NCBI GenBank assembly: GCA_023268155.1
Contig: JALNKM010000003.1
Coordinates: 186,001 to 250,000 of the forward strand
Origin: Candidatus Geocrenenecus huangii
GTDB taxonomy: Archaea > Thermoproteota > Nitrososphaeria_A > Caldarchaeales > Wolframiiraptoraceae
DNA length: 64,000 bases
Direction: 5' to 3'
Shown here: positions 55,950-63,753 of the stretch, one piece after another
Numbering within the stretch: position 1 is the first letter of the stretch
Layout: every line of letters begins with the position of its first letter
Program-made: the position numbers and the translations under genes
The notes under the pieces: model-generated
Told to the model about the DNA's origin: nothing
Databases searched by the model: none
Seen by the model: the letters and a program-made list of their open reading frames with translations, nothing else

Positions 55950-56049
55950 AACTCTTTTATCTCAACGTAACGGTATAGAACCTAAAGTAAATCACATGCA
56001 GGTAAAATAATAATCCAGCTGGGGGAAATTCAAGGTAAACTTAAATGAA

Positions 56050-56059
56050 TCTTTAAAAC
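56050..56059 (+). promoter_or_regulatory. TATA box of the tRNA-Ser gene
   Basis: TCTTTAAAAC is centred about 26 bp before the first base of the tRNA, which is the normal archaeal spacing. Confidence 0.6.
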
Positions 56060-56080
56060 AGTATGAAGACGGTAGAGTAA

Positions 56081-56177
56081 GCGGCGGTACCCTAGCCAGG
56101 TAAGGGGCAGGCCTGGAGAACAGACTAGCCAGCCTGTGGCCCGCGTGGCCTCGAGGGTTCAAATCCCTCCCGCCGCG
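56081..56177 (+). tRNA. tRNA-Ser (anticodon GGA) with a 12-nt intron
   Basis: All arms can be folded by eye. The acceptor stem GCGGCGG/CCGCCGC is perfect, the discriminator is G (serine, not leucine). The D stem CCCT/AGGG closes a 9-nt loop, the T arm is GAGGG-TTCAAAT-CCCTC, and a long variable arm GGCC-CGCGT-GGCC makes it type II. The anticodon stem is CAGGC (56108-56112) with GCCTG (56132-56136). The interval between them is 19 nt, and removing 12 nt leaves the 7-nt loop CTGGAGA with anticodon GGA at 56115-56117. CCA is not encoded. GGA reads UCU/UCC. Confidence 0.93.
56119..56130 (+). other. tRNA intron at position 37/38 with BHB-type splice structure
   Basis: The intron AACAGACTAGCC lies at the canonical site after base 37. 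In the precursor the 5' loop bases CTGG pair with the intron's CTAG (one G-U) to make the 4-bp central helix. AGA and CCA then form the two bulges, so cleavage two bases into each bulge (AG|A and CC|A) gives exactly this intron. The intron side is closed by a loop rather than a second helix, so it is a minimal form. Confidence 0.82.
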
Positions 56178-56434
56178 TAACATAAAACTTCAAGTTCTTC
56201 AACTTAAGTTCCATGAAAATCCTATTGCATTCTTTCTCAATATTCTTCATCGTCTAAATCCATATTCCATAACTACTTCCATAGTACATGTTAGCTTTTA
56301 GATAGTTTAACGAAAATATAATTAGGTAACTCATAAAAAAACACTGTAGGATTCGCTTGCGAAGATCAATTTAATTATTATTTCTCAACAATACTTGCCG
56401 CTGAGAATTATCTTAAGGATCACGTATATGTTTA

Positions 56435-56977
56435 ATGAGTGTTAAGACCTGTTCTCTAGGTATTCTTCTAGATATTCTCCTTGTTTGTAAATATTTCATC
56501 TTGATAGATCAATTTTATGTAGAGTTCTATATTGAGTTCTACTTGATGGCTTATCTCCAAGATTTGTATGAAGTTGGGTATGACTTAGATTATCTAATCA
56601 AGAAAATGGTGGCTTCTGGTAGAGGGATGATTGAGACTGTAGTAGTAGTTTCCAGAGATTTATCTGTACTAGCGTTAGAAGTGGGACATAGTGTATCTTT
56701 AGATGAACTTACATCTGCAGGTGCAATTATTATAAGTGCTTTCTCAAATATTCTTAGAGAAGTAAGTCTGTGTAGATCGGAGAAGATTAGAATAGAGTTA
56801 AAAGATAAAAGATACCTAATCATACAATCTTACATAGACTATTTTCTAATCTGCATGATTGAGCCCAATTCAAGGTTAGGGTTTATAGATCTAGTTCTAG
56901 AGTACTATAAACCCTTGTTATACGAAGTTCTCTATCCTTCACATAATGAAATATCAGAAATAGATAGTTTCACATAA
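56435..56977 (+). CDS. Divergent Roadblock/LC7-like protein
   Basis: Protein of 180 aa. Residues ~65-165 (IETVVVVSRDLSVLALEVG, SAGAIIISAFSNILREV, IRIELKDKRYLIIQSYIDYFLICMIEP, SRLGFIDLVLEYY) follow the strand-helix order of the Roadblock/LC7 (MglB-like) fold seen more clearly at 63.4 kb. The first ~37 residues are unusually hydrophobic and aromatic, and an internal ATG at 56546 (MAYLQDLYEV) may be the true start. Such proteins act as GTPase-interacting modules; no Ras-like GTPase is in the window. Decayed paralogous sequence follows just downstream. Confidence 0.6.
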   Translation: MSVKTCSLGILLDILLVCKYFILIDQFYVEFYIEFYLMAYLQDLYEVGYDLDYLIKKMVASGRGMIETVVVVSRDLSVLALEVGHSVSLDELTSAGAIIISAFSNILREVSLCRSEKIRIELKDKRYLIIQSYIDYFLICMIEPNSRLGFIDLVLEYYKPLLYEVLYPSHNEISEIDSFT

Positions 56978-57139: not shown

Positions 57140-58429
57140 CTAGGTGATAGATGTTTCACATAGTAGTAGTGGGTAGACCTGCTCTTCTATCTTAGTTGGG
57201 TTTACTCGGCATAGCGTGATTTCACCTATTATAGAGGGTAATTCAAATCCAGAAGTGTCAGAATATGATTTACCCGAAATTTCAGTTACCGCTCTAATTA
57301 ATTCAATTCGGTATGTTATAGAACCACCAAGTTTAGTAATGTCGTCGCCAGCATCATCTTCTACAGTTATTTGGAGAACGTCAAAATATGTTTCGCCAGG
57401 AAGAATTCTACTAATCTTCTTAGTAGGTGTGAATTCTCGTCCAAGATTAAGCCCAGAGAGACTTACATCTATTCTTATCTCTACATCTCTTAATGGCTCA
57501 GACTGGTTTCCAAGAGAGATCGCGTATGGTATATCTACTGTTTCTAAATCATTTTTCATCACTACTACCGTGTAGTTGGATATTGTTGGTCTCAGTCTAA
57601 GAGGTATCTGTTCTGGCTGTGAGACTTCAAGAGATGCGTCTAGCCTCACGACCATGTCGTCGAGTACTTCTATAGGCTGTGTTCTGTAGAATGACACTAA
57701 CTGGCCAGTCATGTAATCATACACTGCTATGGATATAGTGTAGTTTCCAGGTGCTACCATAAACGTTATCAGAGCATCTCTATCTAAGGATGTTTGAGGT
57801 ATAAGTTCGTGGGTTCCAAAAGCTTGACATGTCTGGGTAATATTCTCAGATACACAACCGTATTCTCCAACGATCTCCACTTTAACTTTGTATTTGTAGC
57901 CTACAGTCATGTTTTTCACTAAGATAGCGAGTGTGTAAGGAAGGTTCCTTGGTCCTATGATATTCTTTGATACGAAGCTGTTTCCTCTTAATGTTATGAA
58001 CTTAACTCGGACAGTATCATCAATACCTGGATTAAATGATAATCTTAAATCTTCGGGAGTAATCACTCTTCTCTGACCAGGAATGATAACCCAGTCTCCA
58101 TTTTCTCCTTCTCTTACTAATAACCCATATCTATAGCTTTCTATATATATCGTGGGGATTGATACTGAAAGTATTCCTGGGTTGAATACTACTACACATA
58201 CATATAGATCAGACGTCCCCCATCCTCCACAGATTGTCGTGTAAACTTCCAGTCTTTCGTTAAGCCTCTCCAACTCATATTGAAGTCTCCTATTTGCTTC
58301 TTGCATAAATAGTGTTTGTAGACTCTGCATATAGAGGAAGAGTGGGATAATTATTGCAAATACTATTGTTAATGCTATCGCTGTTCCAATTATCGCAGAT
58401 ATAGCCTTCTTATTCCTCTTCATTCTCAT
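57140..58429 (-). CDS. Secreted protein with type IV pilin-like (class III) N-terminus
   Basis: Protein of 429 aa. The N-terminus RMKRNKKAIS-AIIGTAIALTIVFAIIIPLFLYM has the charged stretch, short cleavage motif and hydrophobic helix of archaeal type IV pilin-like proteins, followed by a coiled helix and extracellular beta-rich domains of ~350 residues with several N-glycosylation sequons (for example NYT, NIT). No C-terminal anchor is seen. It is the last of four leftward genes and overlaps the Thr-rich gene by 4 bp. It is probably a pilus-associated or cell-surface adhesin; no named family recognised. Confidence 0.75.
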   Translation of the reverse strand: MRMKRNKKAISAIIGTAIALTIVFAIIIPLFLYMQSLQTLFMQEANRRLQYELERLNERLEVYTTICGGWGTSDLYVCVVVFNPGILSVSIPTIYIESYRYGLLVREGENGDWVIIPGQRRVITPEDLRLSFNPGIDDTVRVKFITLRGNSFVSKNIIGPRNLPYTLAILVKNMTVGYKYKVKVEIVGEYGCVSENITQTCQAFGTHELIPQTSLDRDALITFMVAPGNYTISIAVYDYMTGQLVSFYRTQPIEVLDDMVVRLDASLEVSQPEQIPLRLRPTISNYTVVVMKNDLETVDIPYAISLGNQSEPLRDVEIRIDVSLSGLNLGREFTPTKKISRILPGETYFDVLQITVEDDAGDDITKLGGSITYRIELIRAVTEISGKSYSDTSGFELPSIIGEITLCRVNPTKIEEQVYPLLLCETSIT

Positions 58430-59043
58430 CCACCTGATTCACATACTGTTGAAGTGTGGGTTATAGTTCTAGTTGTCGTAGTAGTTGCTGAAATAGTCGT
58501 TACAATGGTTTGCGTACCCGTTACTGGAATGGTTACAACTCTATATTCTGTCGTTGTAGCTGTGACTGGTTGATTAACTGTTTGAGTGCTGGTAGAAGTT
58601 GTTGTAGTAGTTCCACCTGTTATAGTTGTCGTAGTCCACCGTGTGGTAAGAGAAGTTGTTGTTCTTGTCGTCCATATAACGCTAGTAGTTCTTACATATC
58701 TTACAGTTCTTAATGTTGTAGTAGTTGTCGTCGTAATAATTCTAGTTGTCGTGGATGTGCCTGTGGTTACTGTGGTAGTTGTTGTTAAGGTTTGAGTTAT
58801 CGGCGTTGTTACCTCAACGATAGTTGTAACTGTGACCATACTTGTCACAGTTCCTGAACTTGTAGTAGTAGTAGATGTTACCGTTTCAGTTATAGTCGTA
58901 GTGACGGTGGTCGTAGTGGTAGCTGTTTCAGTCCTTCCCGAGTATGATTGAGGCAGCAGGCTAGTCAACCCGATCAATAAGGTCGACACCAAGATTAACA
59001 CTATGATGTAACTCTCAAACTTTCCGGATTGTCCGTTAACCAC
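58426..59043 (-). CDS. Thr-rich surface stalk protein with N-terminal helix
   Basis: About 205 aa from the GTG at 59043, which is chosen because a strong GGAGGAGGTGG ribosome binding site precedes it; longer in-frame starts run into the upstream gene. A short head VNGQSGKFE leads to a hydrophobic helix YIIVLILVSTLLIGLTSLL. Then ~160 residues are almost entirely Thr with Val, Ser and Ile in TTTTTVTT-like runs, ending ITHTSTVCESGG. Such sequence is extended and probably heavily O-glycosylated. It overlaps neighbours on both sides. Confidence 0.72.
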   Translation of the reverse strand: MVNGQSGKFESYIIVLILVSTLLIGLTSLLPQSYSGRTETATTTTTVTTTITETVTSTTTTSSGTVTSMVTVTTIVEVTTPITQTLTTTTTVTTGTSTTTRIITTTTTTTLRTVRYVRTTSVIWTTRTTTSLTTRWTTTTITGGTTTTTSTSTQTVNQPVTATTTEYRVVTIPVTGTQTIVTTISATTTTTRTITHTSTVCESGG

Positions 59044-60784
59044 TCTTCCACCTCCTCCCGACAACATATATGAATGGAAGGAATACACCTAGTGAAAATA
59101 AGCTCTGTTTTATATCTGAGGATTGGATAATGGGTGAGCCTAATGGACATGTCTGCATCATAGTGGTTGTCGTTGTGCTAGTTGTAACGGTTTTGGTGGA
59201 GTACACCGTTGATGTAGTTGATTTAGTGATTGTAGTTACGGTCGTATAAGATGTTGCGGTACTGGTTAAAGTTTGTGTAGTAATCGTCGTTGGTCTCGTT
59301 GTGGTAACCGTTGTCGTTATCGTTCTGGTTGATGCAGGTATTGTGATCGTCGAAGTCCTACTAACCGTCGAAACAGTTGTAACTATCGAAGTACTTGTCC
59401 TAGTAGTTGTAACAGTAGCGGTGGCAGTATAACTCGTTCTCGTAACTGTTCGAGTGGTGGTTATAGTTGTAGTTATTGTGGTTCTAGGCACAGTAGTAGT
59501 CTGGGTAGCGTAAAACAAAGTAGTACTTGTGACGGTTCTAGTTGAAGTTGCTGTCTGAGTATTGGTTATAGTCGTTTCTGGAACTGTTGCAGTCGAGAGA
59601 GATGTCGAGGTCGTTGTCGCAGTCTTTGTTACTGTCGATGTCTCCGTTACAGTCACTATTGGAGATACATCAACTACCTGCACCTCAATACTGTAAACAT
59701 CACTCATCAATGGATTTCTATCAAACTCTAATCCATAGTCTAGATATAATTCTCGGAAGCCGCCCAGCCGGACTTCACGGTCGATAACTTCGCTCTTCGC
59801 TATCAACACACCATTACAATCATGTACCTTGACCTCGATCTTATAGTGTCCATCATCGTTATAGTTTATCGTGAGGAATGCTCCAGTTAATCTAAAAGTA
59901 TAAGGGCTCCAGATTAGCATAATCTTATCGACATAAGCTGTGACATCATTCTTAAAGGTCCAGTGATTTTGAATTAGAGTCCAGTTAGGCGTCCTTACAT
60001 CGAAGTATATTTCTACTGGGTACTCTAGGCTAGAGCTTGATGATAACTCTATAAGTTCTTCTCCACTAGATACTGTTGGAACAATTCTCTCTCCTTCAGC
60101 AATATCCCCATCTCGATCTTCTAGCACAGTATGTAAAAGAACCTCATCTAGGATAGAAGCTCTTGGAAGCTTTATCTTCAATACATTCGAAATAGTTCCT
60201 CCTTCTTCAACAGGATCTACATAATCTATCCAAACCCATTTCTCATTTATGGGAATAGGACATATGTTCCCAGGAGCTATCGTAAGTTCTTCAGCTTTAA
60301 ATGATGCGACGCGAAAGAGTATTACGTCAGATGTCGGATTAATTAACTCTGGATTTGATGGATCATAAAGATCAGCCGGCATATAATGTACCTGTAATAC
60401 AACTAAGTCGTCACGGCTGCATCCCGGGCAATCAAAAAAGATCTTAGATACTTCTCTCACATCTATCCTTTCAATCTCTCTTATTCCGTAAACTTGGAAA
60501 GAATCCCAAGCAATTTCTCCATTACGTAAAGTGATTAGTCTAAATATTACGACTGGTTCTTTACCAGTATTTCTAATATAAGCTTCTCCCCCTGGATAGA
60601 TAACGTAGTCTGCAGAAATCATCGAGCGGAGCACGAGAGCTTCAGCATTAAGTTCTTCAAGAGCTTTAACTCTGTATATACTAGCATATGCTGAAAGAAT
60701 GCTCCACACAAATAACCCTATACCTAACACCATAGCTACAGCTATCGTTATTACGAGAGTGTTGCTCTGACCAGTTTTCCTCAT
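59036..60784 (-). CDS. Pilin-like surface protein with Thr-rich stalk and C-terminal membrane segment
   Basis: Protein of 582 aa. N-terminus MRKTGQSNTLVITIAVAMVLGIGLFVWSIL is a helix like that of class III pilin-type proteins. Residues ~50-400 are beta-rich globular domains with CPGC at about 119-122 and CPIPINEKWVWIDYVDP; ~400-545 is a Thr/Val/Ser stalk. The end has a hydrophobic segment (SLFSLGVFLPFIYVV) and basic GRRWKSG, resembling an anchor or sorting tail though no PGF-type motif is present. Its globular part is clearly paralogous to the gene at 60800 (shared IDYVDP, Cys-x2-Cys and LYD motifs). Confidence 0.75.
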   Translation of the reverse strand: MRKTGQSNTLVITIAVAMVLGIGLFVWSILSAYASIYRVKALEELNAEALVLRSMISADYVIYPGGEAYIRNTGKEPVVIFRLITLRNGEIAWDSFQVYGIREIERIDVREVSKIFFDCPGCSRDDLVVLQVHYMPADLYDPSNPELINPTSDVILFRVASFKAEELTIAPGNICPIPINEKWVWIDYVDPVEEGGTISNVLKIKLPRASILDEVLLHTVLEDRDGDIAEGERIVPTVSSGEELIELSSSSSLEYPVEIYFDVRTPNWTLIQNHWTFKNDVTAYVDKIMLIWSPYTFRLTGAFLTINYNDDGHYKIEVKVHDCNGVLIAKSEVIDREVRLGGFRELYLDYGLEFDRNPLMSDVYSIEVQVVDVSPIVTVTETSTVTKTATTTSTSLSTATVPETTITNTQTATSTRTVTSTTLFYATQTTTVPRTTITTTITTTRTVTRTSYTATATVTTTRTSTSIVTTVSTVSRTSTITIPASTRTITTTVTTTRPTTITTQTLTSTATSYTTVTTITKSTTSTVYSTKTVTTSTTTTTMMQTCPLGSPIIQSSDIKQSLFSLGVFLPFIYVVGRRWKSG

Positions 60785-60799
60785 ACACTCGACCCCCCA

Positions 60800-61984
60800 T
60801 TACCTCTTTTCCTCTATCTTTGTCTCGATATAGTATATCTGGTCTAATCTTACAGAATTTGAAACAGGGATAAACCTTATCTCAAAGTCATTAATTCTCT
60901 CAACCTCGACTGTGATGGTTGAATCCTGTAGTACATCTTTATAGCAATCTCTCAAGATAACGCGCACATTGTAATTCCCCTTTTCTCCAAGCCCGAGTTC
61001 GAGCATAATTCCCTCAAGTGTTCTATCTATCCTAGACCATTGTAGATATATGCCGCTAACATGTAATTTTAAACTATTTAATGTTTCATTTGGCAATCCA
61101 TCTAGAAACCATTCTCTTTGAATTACATCCCAACTTGAACCTACTATTATCCTAAGCGGGGTTTGGAGACCGCCGAAAGTTCCAGAAATACGTTCAAGAC
61201 GTATTGATGGTACATCAAGGCTTGCAGTCCCCGAGCCAGATCTACCCGTTTCATCTTCCATGACAATAACTGTGAAAGGCATATCCTCAATTTGATTAGA
61301 TGCGAGTGAAGGTCTAATATAGACGGCCGGTTCTAGTGTACTGATACGTCCAAAGATAGCTCCTGTAGCTGGATCAACGTAATCGACCATTATCCAGTTA
61401 CTAGTAGGTAATGGACACTTCAAAACTTCTACAGCACCGATTGGTTTAATCATCCTGAATTCGACGTAAAGCATATTACTTACAGATAGTAGGGGATTCT
61501 CAACATCATATAAGCTTGATGAAATATACCACACTCTGTAAGTTAGGTTTTCACCCTTGTGACAGGAAGGACATGTTGGCGCATCTAAGATTTTTTTCTC
61601 ACCATTTATTAGCTTAGTTAGGTTACCGAATCCATAGGGAGTTTTTGGAAGCGAATCATAAAACCTATCATTTGAAATAAGTAGTTCGATCCTCGTAATA
61701 GTAAGGTCTATTGCTTGTTTAGCAATATTTCTAACATGAATCTTCGCATATTCTTCCCCATTCTCTTCTCCATATTGTACTGATTCAATGAGGAGTATTC
61801 CTCTAAGTAGCTGTATGTTTCTATCCGTCTCTTTCGTCAAATCATAAGTAGTATTAGCAAATATTCCAGCAGAATATAACATAAGAAAGATCCCTAAAGC
61901 TATAACCATGGAAGAAATAACCGCAACCTCAATAACCGTTAAACCCTTCTTACTATTACGTAGTGAAACTATGAGCTTACACAT
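60800..61984 (-). CDS. Type IV pilin-like protein with class III signal peptide
   Basis: Protein of 394 aa, first gene of the leftward surface unit. The signal is SKKG-LTVIEVAVISSMVIALGIFLMLYSAG: basic residues, Gly before the cleavage site and Glu at +5, the classic prepilin pattern for PibD/FlaK-type peptidase. The mature part is beta-rich, with CPSC at about 137-140, CPLPTSNWIMVDYVDP and NYNVRVILRDCYKDVL. These parallel the next gene, so the two arose by duplication. TATA-like AT-rich sequence lies just upstream (about 62001-62026). Confidence 0.8.
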   Translation of the reverse strand: MCKLIVSLRNSKKGLTVIEVAVISSMVIALGIFLMLYSAGIFANTTYDLTKETDRNIQLLRGILLIESVQYGEENGEEYAKIHVRNIAKQAIDLTITRIELLISNDRFYDSLPKTPYGFGNLTKLINGEKKILDAPTCPSCHKGENLTYRVWYISSSLYDVENPLLSVSNMLYVEFRMIKPIGAVEVLKCPLPTSNWIMVDYVDPATGAIFGRISTLEPAVYIRPSLASNQIEDMPFTVIVMEDETGRSGSGTASLDVPSIRLERISGTFGGLQTPLRIIVGSSWDVIQREWFLDGLPNETLNSLKLHVSGIYLQWSRIDRTLEGIMLELGLGEKGNYNVRVILRDCYKDVLQDSTITVEVERINDFEIRFIPVSNSVRLDQIYYIETKIEEKR

Positions 61985-62315: not shown

Positions 62316-62975
62316 CTACCGACCTCTATCTGGCCATAGTAGCCATACAATCATGAATCCTTGAGCAATACTGTCTAGCACCATTTCTACTCCATGTCCA
62401 AGTCTAAGCTCGATCGGCCAAGCTACGTTGACTAGCTGTGGGACTACAGCACCAATAATTGCTAGTAGTGCTCCTAGATATAGGCCAAGCCTCCATCTAC
62501 TCAGCCTGATCAACGCTATTAGTGGAGTAAAAGTCAATGCATATATTAGTCCACGTGCCAACTCGACGGGTACTATTACTTCTGGACTAGGAATAACGAG
62601 GCCCAGCCCGAGCTCGGGGTTATCATAGAAGGGGCCAGTTATTGGAGAGAATATGAAGCCGAAGAAATAATATATCGGGACGAAGAGCACGGATGCAAGA
62701 GCGAATCGCCAAGGCCAATGGAGGCTGCTACGCTTCGAGAAATATCTCTTAACTTCGCTGAATAGGTCCTTACTGGCTTTTCCCGGTTTAAAGAGAACTC
62801 CAACAGCTATCGCTATTATCAGATTGACGATTAGTTGTTCCATGAGAAGAAATAGTTGGAATGATGTCGGATACGTAGTGAATAGTGCGACGTCAGGAAC
62901 TCCTATCAGATACGAGAACATGTACAATGTTAGGAACAGTATAATTATTCTCTGAGCAAGTGGAATTTCAAGCAT
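62316..62975 (-). CDS. Polytopic membrane protein, about 6 TM helices
   Basis: Hydrophobic protein of 219 aa with some six spans and a short basic cytosolic loop (KPGKASKDLFSEVKRYFSKRSS). YYFFGFIFSPITGPFYDNPELGLGLVIP and the C-terminal AWPIELRLGHGVEMVLDSIAQGFMIVWLLWPDR are the most distinctive stretches; I recognise no family. It lies between the pilin-like unit and a Roadblock protein on the same strand. A role with the surface structure is possible from position only. Confidence 0.65.
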   Translation of the reverse strand: MLEIPLAQRIIILFLTLYMFSYLIGVPDVALFTTYPTSFQLFLLMEQLIVNLIIAIAVGVLFKPGKASKDLFSEVKRYFSKRSSLHWPWRFALASVLFVPIYYFFGFIFSPITGPFYDNPELGLGLVIPSPEVIVPVELARGLIYALTFTPLIALIRLSRWRLGLYLGALLAIIGAVVPQLVNVAWPIELRLGHGVEMVLDSIAQGFMIVWLLWPDRGR

Positions 62976-63384: not shown

Positions 63385-63753
63385 CTAGTCTAATACGTCT
63401 TTTAGTTTTTCTACCGTATCTTTCACATCTATGATCAATAAGCCTATCTTTGCTTTAGGGCTCATCAATATTATTAGAGATGCTTTCTTTCCTGGGTATA
63501 GTATTGCTCCACCCTTGTCTGTTAATAGTATGAGGAAGTTCAGTTTACCCAATGCAACTTGATCTGAGACTCTTTCAACAATACTCTGGAGAGCTGAGAA
63601 CGCGGCTGAAGCACGTTCTTCATCGACACCGCTCGGTAAGCTACTTTCTATAACTAATCCTTCAGTACTTATTATTGCTGCACCAGAAACGTCTGGATTA
63701 CCTCTGATTAATTCACTTATTACGCTTCTTATCTTCTCAGCACGAGTAGACAT
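63385..63753 (-). CDS. Roadblock/LC7-domain protein (MglB-like)
   Basis: Protein of 122 aa consisting of one Roadblock/LC7 domain. SELIRGNPDVSGAAIISTEGLVIESSLPSGVDEERASAAFSAL, LGKLNFLILLTDKGGAILYPGKKASLIILMSP and AKIGLLIIDVKDTVEKLKDVL (read in parts) give the standard strand and helix order. Such proteins form homodimers that regulate Ras-like MglA GTPases in polarity, motility and signalling. AAGGTGATT before the ATG is the ribosome binding site. With the more divergent relative at 56.4 kb it brackets the surface-protein unit. Confidence 0.9.
   Translation of the reverse strand: MSTRAEKIRSVISELIRGNPDVSGAAIISTEGLVIESSLPSGVDEERASAAFSALQSIVERVSDQVALGKLNFLILLTDKGGAILYPGKKASLIILMSPKAKIGLLIIDVKDTVEKLKDVLD

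Follow-up and report, generated by a model that had tools for sequence, protein, structure and literature searches.

The four adjacent genes G1 to G4 of a hot-spring archaeon probably form an accessory operon that supplies minor or tip pilins to a type IV pilus of the Caldarchaeales. They lie in a 64,000-nucleotide stretch of DNA (hereafter the window, whose numbering we use; positions 186001-250000 of contig C15 of genome G000, a 1.7-Mb assembly of 21 contigs). The operon is located at a complete type IV pilus locus that comprises a secretion ATPase, a TadC membrane protein and a further pilin. Three of its products, G1, G2 and G4, are multidomain type IV pilins with added beta-sandwich domains, and the remaining product, G3, is a short membrane-anchored Thr-rich stalk that is not pilin-like. 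Membership of the unit in a type IV pilus system is well supported, and we observe its gene order, pilin homology, motor genes, peptidase, co-occurrence with TadC and matched stalk lengths; filament assembly, tip position, an adhesive role and physical contact between the stalks of G2 and G3 are what we infer.

All four minus-strand open reading frames were confirmed at the coordinates at which a first-pass annotation had placed four coupled leftward genes (Table 1). They are real genes and are translationally coupled. G1 and G2 are separated by 15 nt, G2 and G3 overlap by 8 nt, and the overlap of G3 with G4 is ATGA. The G3 frame is listed from 59088, and its likely start is a GTG at 59043 within the end of G2, preceded by the motif GGAGGAGGTGG. 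Promoter and terminator scans of bacterial type gave matches no more frequent than chance; by eye only, a TATA-like CTTTATATATTTT can be read immediately upstream of G1. Between the Roadblock gene and G1 lies a gene for a 219-aa hydrophobic membrane protein (62316-62975) with no positional counterpart in two sister genomes. Just past the end of the operon is a tRNA-Ser gene (anticodon aga, 56081-56177), overlapped by a 63-aa frame (55992-56183) that is probably spurious.

Table 1. Features of the G1-G4 region, in window coordinates
Feature	Position	Strand	Description
G1	60800..61984	-	Multidomain type IV pilin, 394 aa; class III cleavage site KKG|LTVIE
G1 pilin part	61445..61942	-	Mature N-terminal helix 17-61 and beta domain to ~180; matches 8fk7
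G1 added C-terminal beta-sandwich region	60809..61396	-	Residues 197-392, mostly pLDDT 88-96; Caldarchaeales only among genomes searched
G2	59036..60784	-	G1 paralogue, 582 aa; Thr stalk and hydrophobic segment at C-terminus
G2 Thr/Ser-rich stalk	59114..59680	-	Residues 369-557, 189 aa
G2 C-terminal hydrophobic segment	59057..59101	-	LFSLGVFLPFIYVVG, then basic tail RRWKSG
G3	58426..59043	-	~205 aa; hydrophobic N-terminus (anchor or Sec signal) followed by Thr-rich stalk
G3 Thr/Ser-rich stalk	58429..58974	-	182 aa; length matched to G2 stalk
G4	57140..58429	-	Multidomain type IV pilin (429 aa) with N-terminal match to UpsB; class III site KKA|ISAIIG
Roadblock/LC7 protein	63385..63753	-	Family found between ATPase and G1 in sister genomes
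Roadblock-like family ORF	56435..56977	+	Convergent with G4; position kept in both sister genomes

Class III prepilin-like N-termini had been proposed for the unit, and this holds for three of the four proteins. G1 and G4 carry the strict motif followed by a hydrophobic helix. The G2 motif is a near match here (MRKTG|QS) and is strict in several orthologues, and the Gly or Ala preceding the predicted cleavage site is conserved in the pilin families. G3 has only a hydrophobic N-terminal segment, and the class III motif was found neither here nor in most of its orthologues, which rules it out as a pilin. The further proposal of paralogous beta-rich heads with shared motifs stands for G1 and G2, which are paralogous (tblastn E=1.3e-16, 27% identity) and share CPxC, DYVDP and LYD, but not for G4, which lacks these motifs. 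Searches of G1 and G2 against Pfam, PHROGs and NCBIfam gave no meaningful match.

Structure prediction, which the first-pass annotation had suggested for the heads, separates a pilin domain in G1 from the added beta-sandwich. The AlphaFold model of G1 (pLDDT 85.5, pTM 0.56) consists of a helix (residues 17-61), a beta domain (64-179) and a confident second beta region (197-392). Foldseek pairs it with the Pyrobaculum calidifontis pilus subunit 8fk7 at a probability of 1.00 (167 columns, TM 0.67 by target, rmsd 4.3), and the G1 profile also matches the 8fk7 chain by sequence (E=2.9e-05). The Foldseek matches with better E-values than 8fk7 are long multi-domain proteins with low TM-scores. Fold matches to integrins, complement and transglutaminases likewise have low TM-scores and were set aside as generic Ig-like. 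The G4 model (pLDDT 81.5, pTM 0.51) has an N-terminal helix of 51 residues (7-57) and several beta-sandwich regions, and its 50 listed fold matches are generic and include no pilus structure. We assign G4 as a pilin because it combines a class III site and helix with an N-terminus that matches UpsB (E=7.9e-06, at 26 bits against a curated cut-off of 70; the match to UpsA reaches 17 bits against a cut-off of 130).

The first-pass annotation had stated that no archaellum or pilus motor genes are nearby, an apparent lack that arises from where the window was cut. A search of the genome for a secretion ATPase found a T2SSE match (C15:251376-251864) within a 602-aa frame on the same strand (C15:250725-252533), which begins 0.7 kb past the window edge. 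Reading outward from the window, a 199-aa protein precedes the ATPase. Beyond it, on the opposite strand, are a Roadblock-like membrane protein (198 aa), a Roadblock protein (120 aa), an Arf-like small GTPase and a T2SSF/TadC membrane protein (599 aa; C15:254614-256413). Next to TadC, a member of the small pilin family that adjoins TadC in relatives begins at C15:256671 and runs off the contig end (C15:256671-256877). The ATPase, TadC, the cut pilin gene and the Roadblock/Arf-like GTPase module thus all lie at most 7 kb past the window edge, and a motorless, stand-alone system is ruled out. A prepilin peptidase, whose absence had been named as telling against the unit being a pilin system, is encoded on contig C16 (A24 family, PF01478 above cut-off, C16:29621-29944). 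Archaellins and their adjoining ATPase are on contig C12, away from the G1-G4 locus, which has none; this rules out an archaellum. The earlier description of a secreted fibre or adhesin at the surface, and not a standard archaellum, is right in direction: three of the four genes encode type IV pilins, and the archaellum genes lie elsewhere. Its picture of a separate system without a motor is not supported.

Judged by named relatives of its TadC, the organism belongs to the Caldarchaeales (Aigarchaeota), near Geocrenenecus: the nearest are those of KUA_Bin06 (93% identity) and Geocrenenecus arthurdayi (91%), and more distant ones occur in Wolframiiraptor, Terraquivivens, Calditenuis and Caldarchaeum. 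Several features of these loci are recorded here in their own right. Beside TadC, the 120-aa Roadblock gene overlaps the start of the Arf-like small GTPase gene in an MglB/MglA-like layout (L038:15902-17414, equivalent to C15:252901-254413), and a Roadblock and Arf-like GTPase layout is kept beside the pilus TadC in many family members. The pilus ATPases of Geocrenenecus arthurdayi and two Wolframiiraptor genomes contain an intein of ~480 residues (L082:1242-4499, L062:5553-8831, L080:2129-5416), recognized as an Intein_splicing match with, in one case, a LAGLIDADG match; the ATPase of the present genome has no intein. In many Calditenuaceae pilus loci a TackOD1-domain protein, possibly a double zinc ribbon, adjoins G1 or TadC (L044:12495-14117 and relatives), and none was found at the pilus locus of the present genome.

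We surveyed homologues of the unit in 398 genomes of the phylum. Full-length matches to G1 and G2 were found only in Caldarchaeales; outside the order, matches are confined to the first ~50-150 residues and to short pilins (frames of 144-194 aa, and one of 293 aa; best E 3e-10). A first scan of the genome contigs with the G2 head gave no match. The order G1-G2-(G3)-G4 recurs in about 17-20 Caldarchaeales loci, and the unit is therefore far above chance. Among the 29 Caldarchaeales genomes at least 90% complete, G1 occurs in 15 of the 23 that have this TadC and in none of the 6 that do not (p=0.006, kinship ignored). The association is weaker over all 44 genomes, incomplete ones included (p=0.08); in two incomplete genomes (G037 and G042) G1 is present and TadC undetected. 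Two of the five genomes of the genus are without the G1-G4 unit, one of them also without the motor: in G002, TadC, the ATPase, the small pilin and G1-G4 are all missing together. Many genomes also have a two-gene version, the short pair, at this motor or close to it, in which a pilin of ~160 aa precedes a G4-like pilin of ~390 aa; in some cases it adjoins the four-gene unit. A rough FastTree places the G4 proteins of the four-gene unit and the G4-like proteins of the short pair in separate groups; G2 is grouped, and so is G1, save for one short pilin (L049) that falls among the G1 sequences. An origin of the four-gene unit by extension and duplication of the short pair would fit this tree, which is no proof of it.

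The two Thr/Val stalks of ~150 residues that had been noted in the unit are indeed Thr-rich tracts, but are longer, at 189 and 182 residues. As also noted, one of them ends in a C-terminal membrane segment: G2 closes with a hydrophobic segment and basic tail, whereas G3 has its hydrophobic segment at the N-terminus and none at the C-terminus. The hydrophobic ending is common to the 14 G2 proteins that have a stalk, and in most of them a basic tail is present as well. Across loci the stalk ranges over 157-232 residues in G2 and 153-204 in G3, with Thr and Ser together making up about 53-62% of both, and no clear period that would indicate beta-strands emerged from hydrophobic autocorrelation. 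The lengths of the two stalks are closely correlated (r=0.94 over the 14 loci with both, all from one order). This persists in independent contrasts (r=0.945, falling to 0.75 without the largest contrast; rank correlation 0.65, p=0.017), with the G3 stalk 13 +/- 6 residues shorter than that of G2. G3 stalk length is uncorrelated with the lengths of the G2 head, G1 or G4. The stalks are also present or absent together: at three loci (G006:C106, G012 and G021) G2 is ~380 aa long, has no stalk and is accompanied by no G3, and G006 also carries another copy of the unit, one that has both stalks. At one locus (L044 of genome G022, L044:9274-11124) G2 and G3 are read as a single 616-aa frame with one long Thr tract, which could reflect either a genuine fusion or repetitive DNA that collapsed during assembly.

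If both proteins are anchored in the membrane, the G2 stalk runs down to it and the G3 stalk up from it; matched lengths would then be expected from side-by-side pairing of the stalks or from a shared wall thickness. The lengths could instead be kept alike at the DNA level, by gene conversion or slippage between neighbouring Thr-rich tracts rather than by protein pairing, as the two tracts are adjacent and of low complexity. We regard this as improbable: the two stalks are no more alike in DNA within a genome (identity 0.668) than between genomes (0.663), and either stalk can be aligned with its orthologues along its length. Gene conversion between the stalks is thus unsupported.

In the accessory-pilin reading that we favour, a PibD/FlaK-type peptidase would cut G1, G2 and G4 after the Gly or Ala of their class III signals, and the neighbouring ATPase and TadC would extract these three and join them to the small pilin whose gene follows TadC. 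The added beta-sandwich domains would point outward as binding or adhesive heads. G2 would be kept tied to the membrane by its ~190-residue Thr/Val stalk ending in the hydrophobic C-terminal segment, and G3 would provide a second stalk of nearly equal length, held by an N-terminal anchor. The two stalks may run side by side through the space under the S-layer, where the pair would form a tether or collar of fixed height at the point at which the pilus exits. A C-terminal membrane anchor is unusual for a filament subunit, and G2 might never enter the filament. A more specific version, which we put forward tentatively and hold to be unlikely, is that G2 is a leashed pilin: its N-terminus would be pulled by the motor while its C-terminus is held at the membrane through the stalk, with the matched G3 alongside, and the pair would set the height of the head above the S-layer. 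If this is true, leashed G2 together with G3 would constitute a ruler-limited type IV pilus or a pilus collar, of which we found no description in archaea.

Two other accounts keep the class III signals and give up the filament. The unit could be a static pilin-like surface assembly of the kind proposed for the Sulfolobus bindosome, in which the class III pathway delivers binding proteins to the surface and no filament is made. The hydrophobic segments at both ends of G2 and the large beta-rich heads would suit such an assembly, which has an archaeal precedent in the bindosome, whose locus carries an added secreted protein of ~500 aa (PMC4858521). In the bindosome, BasEF puts together solute-binding proteins that bear class III signals. 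The locus described here, however, encodes the complete motor of a type IV pilus along with a small pilin, and no solute-binding family was found for the unit in Pfam or NCBIfam; the fold matches of the beta-sandwiches are generic, Ig/FnIII-like, and name no ligand. We consider a static assembly unlikely. A still less probable account, and one we doubt strongly, casts G2 and G3 as SlaB-like pillars fixing how wide the space beneath the S-layer is, with pilin-like N-termini serving only for targeting. Sulfolobus SlaB has beta-sandwich domains, a membrane anchor and a glycosylated linker rich in Ser and Thr, and is described as a distance ruler (PMC6911244), a role that matched stalk lengths would also suit. 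However, an S-layer anchor should not be dispensable, and the unit is accessory, being missing from two of the five genomes of the genus; moreover, the heads of G2 are pilin paralogues. We retain the reading of G1-G4 as an accessory pilin operon.

The Caldarchaeales are known mostly through metagenomes, and the one paper we found that mentions their pili lists them only as single annotated genes (PMC10547907). The locus supplies a defined type IV pilus with multidomain pilins specific to the order. It also yields a sharp and testable observation, that two separate Thr-rich proteins have stalks that are gained, lost and resized together. If the stalks pair, this would show how a component of an archaeal pilus is kept at a defined height across the S-layer.

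For type IV pili of Thermoproteota, Makarova et al. 2016 (PMC4858521) describe clade 4 ATPases and minor pilins or adhesins, large ones included, as well as S-layer-like proteins that end in a membrane segment. They also describe Roadblock proteins at pilus loci of the phylum. The Caldarchaeales locus resembles these systems in its ATPase, TadC and pilins of several sizes, in its large secreted minor pilins or adhesins, in conserved cysteines and in the Roadblock proteins frequent in such loci. What sets it apart is that its large pilins have been duplicated into a pair bearing an added domain specific to the order, and that a second, separate protein has a Thr stalk whose length matches that of the G2 stalk. 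The subunit of the flagellar-like type IV pilus of Pyrobaculum calidifontis, 8fk7, resembles G1 over the first ~100 residues by sequence and ~170 by fold, but is a single-domain protein of 144 residues, whereas G1 and G2 have ~200 residues more and G2 a stalk and anchor besides. The UV-induced pili of Sulfolobus likewise have pilin genes at an ATPase/TadC locus, and the N-terminus of G4 matches UpsB and, weakly, UpsA. These matches are, however, far under the curated cut-offs, and the Ups models span 126-136 positions, with no extra domains or stalks. Sulfolobus SlaB is alike by description only, in its membrane anchor, Ser/Thr-rich linker, beta-sandwich heads and proposed ruler-like role (PMC6911244), but is no pilin, and its description includes a coiled coil and a partner, SlaA. 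The families may already be listed among the arCOGs. What is known is the archaeal type IV pilus as such, and what is new is the form that its accessory pilins and pair of stalks take here.
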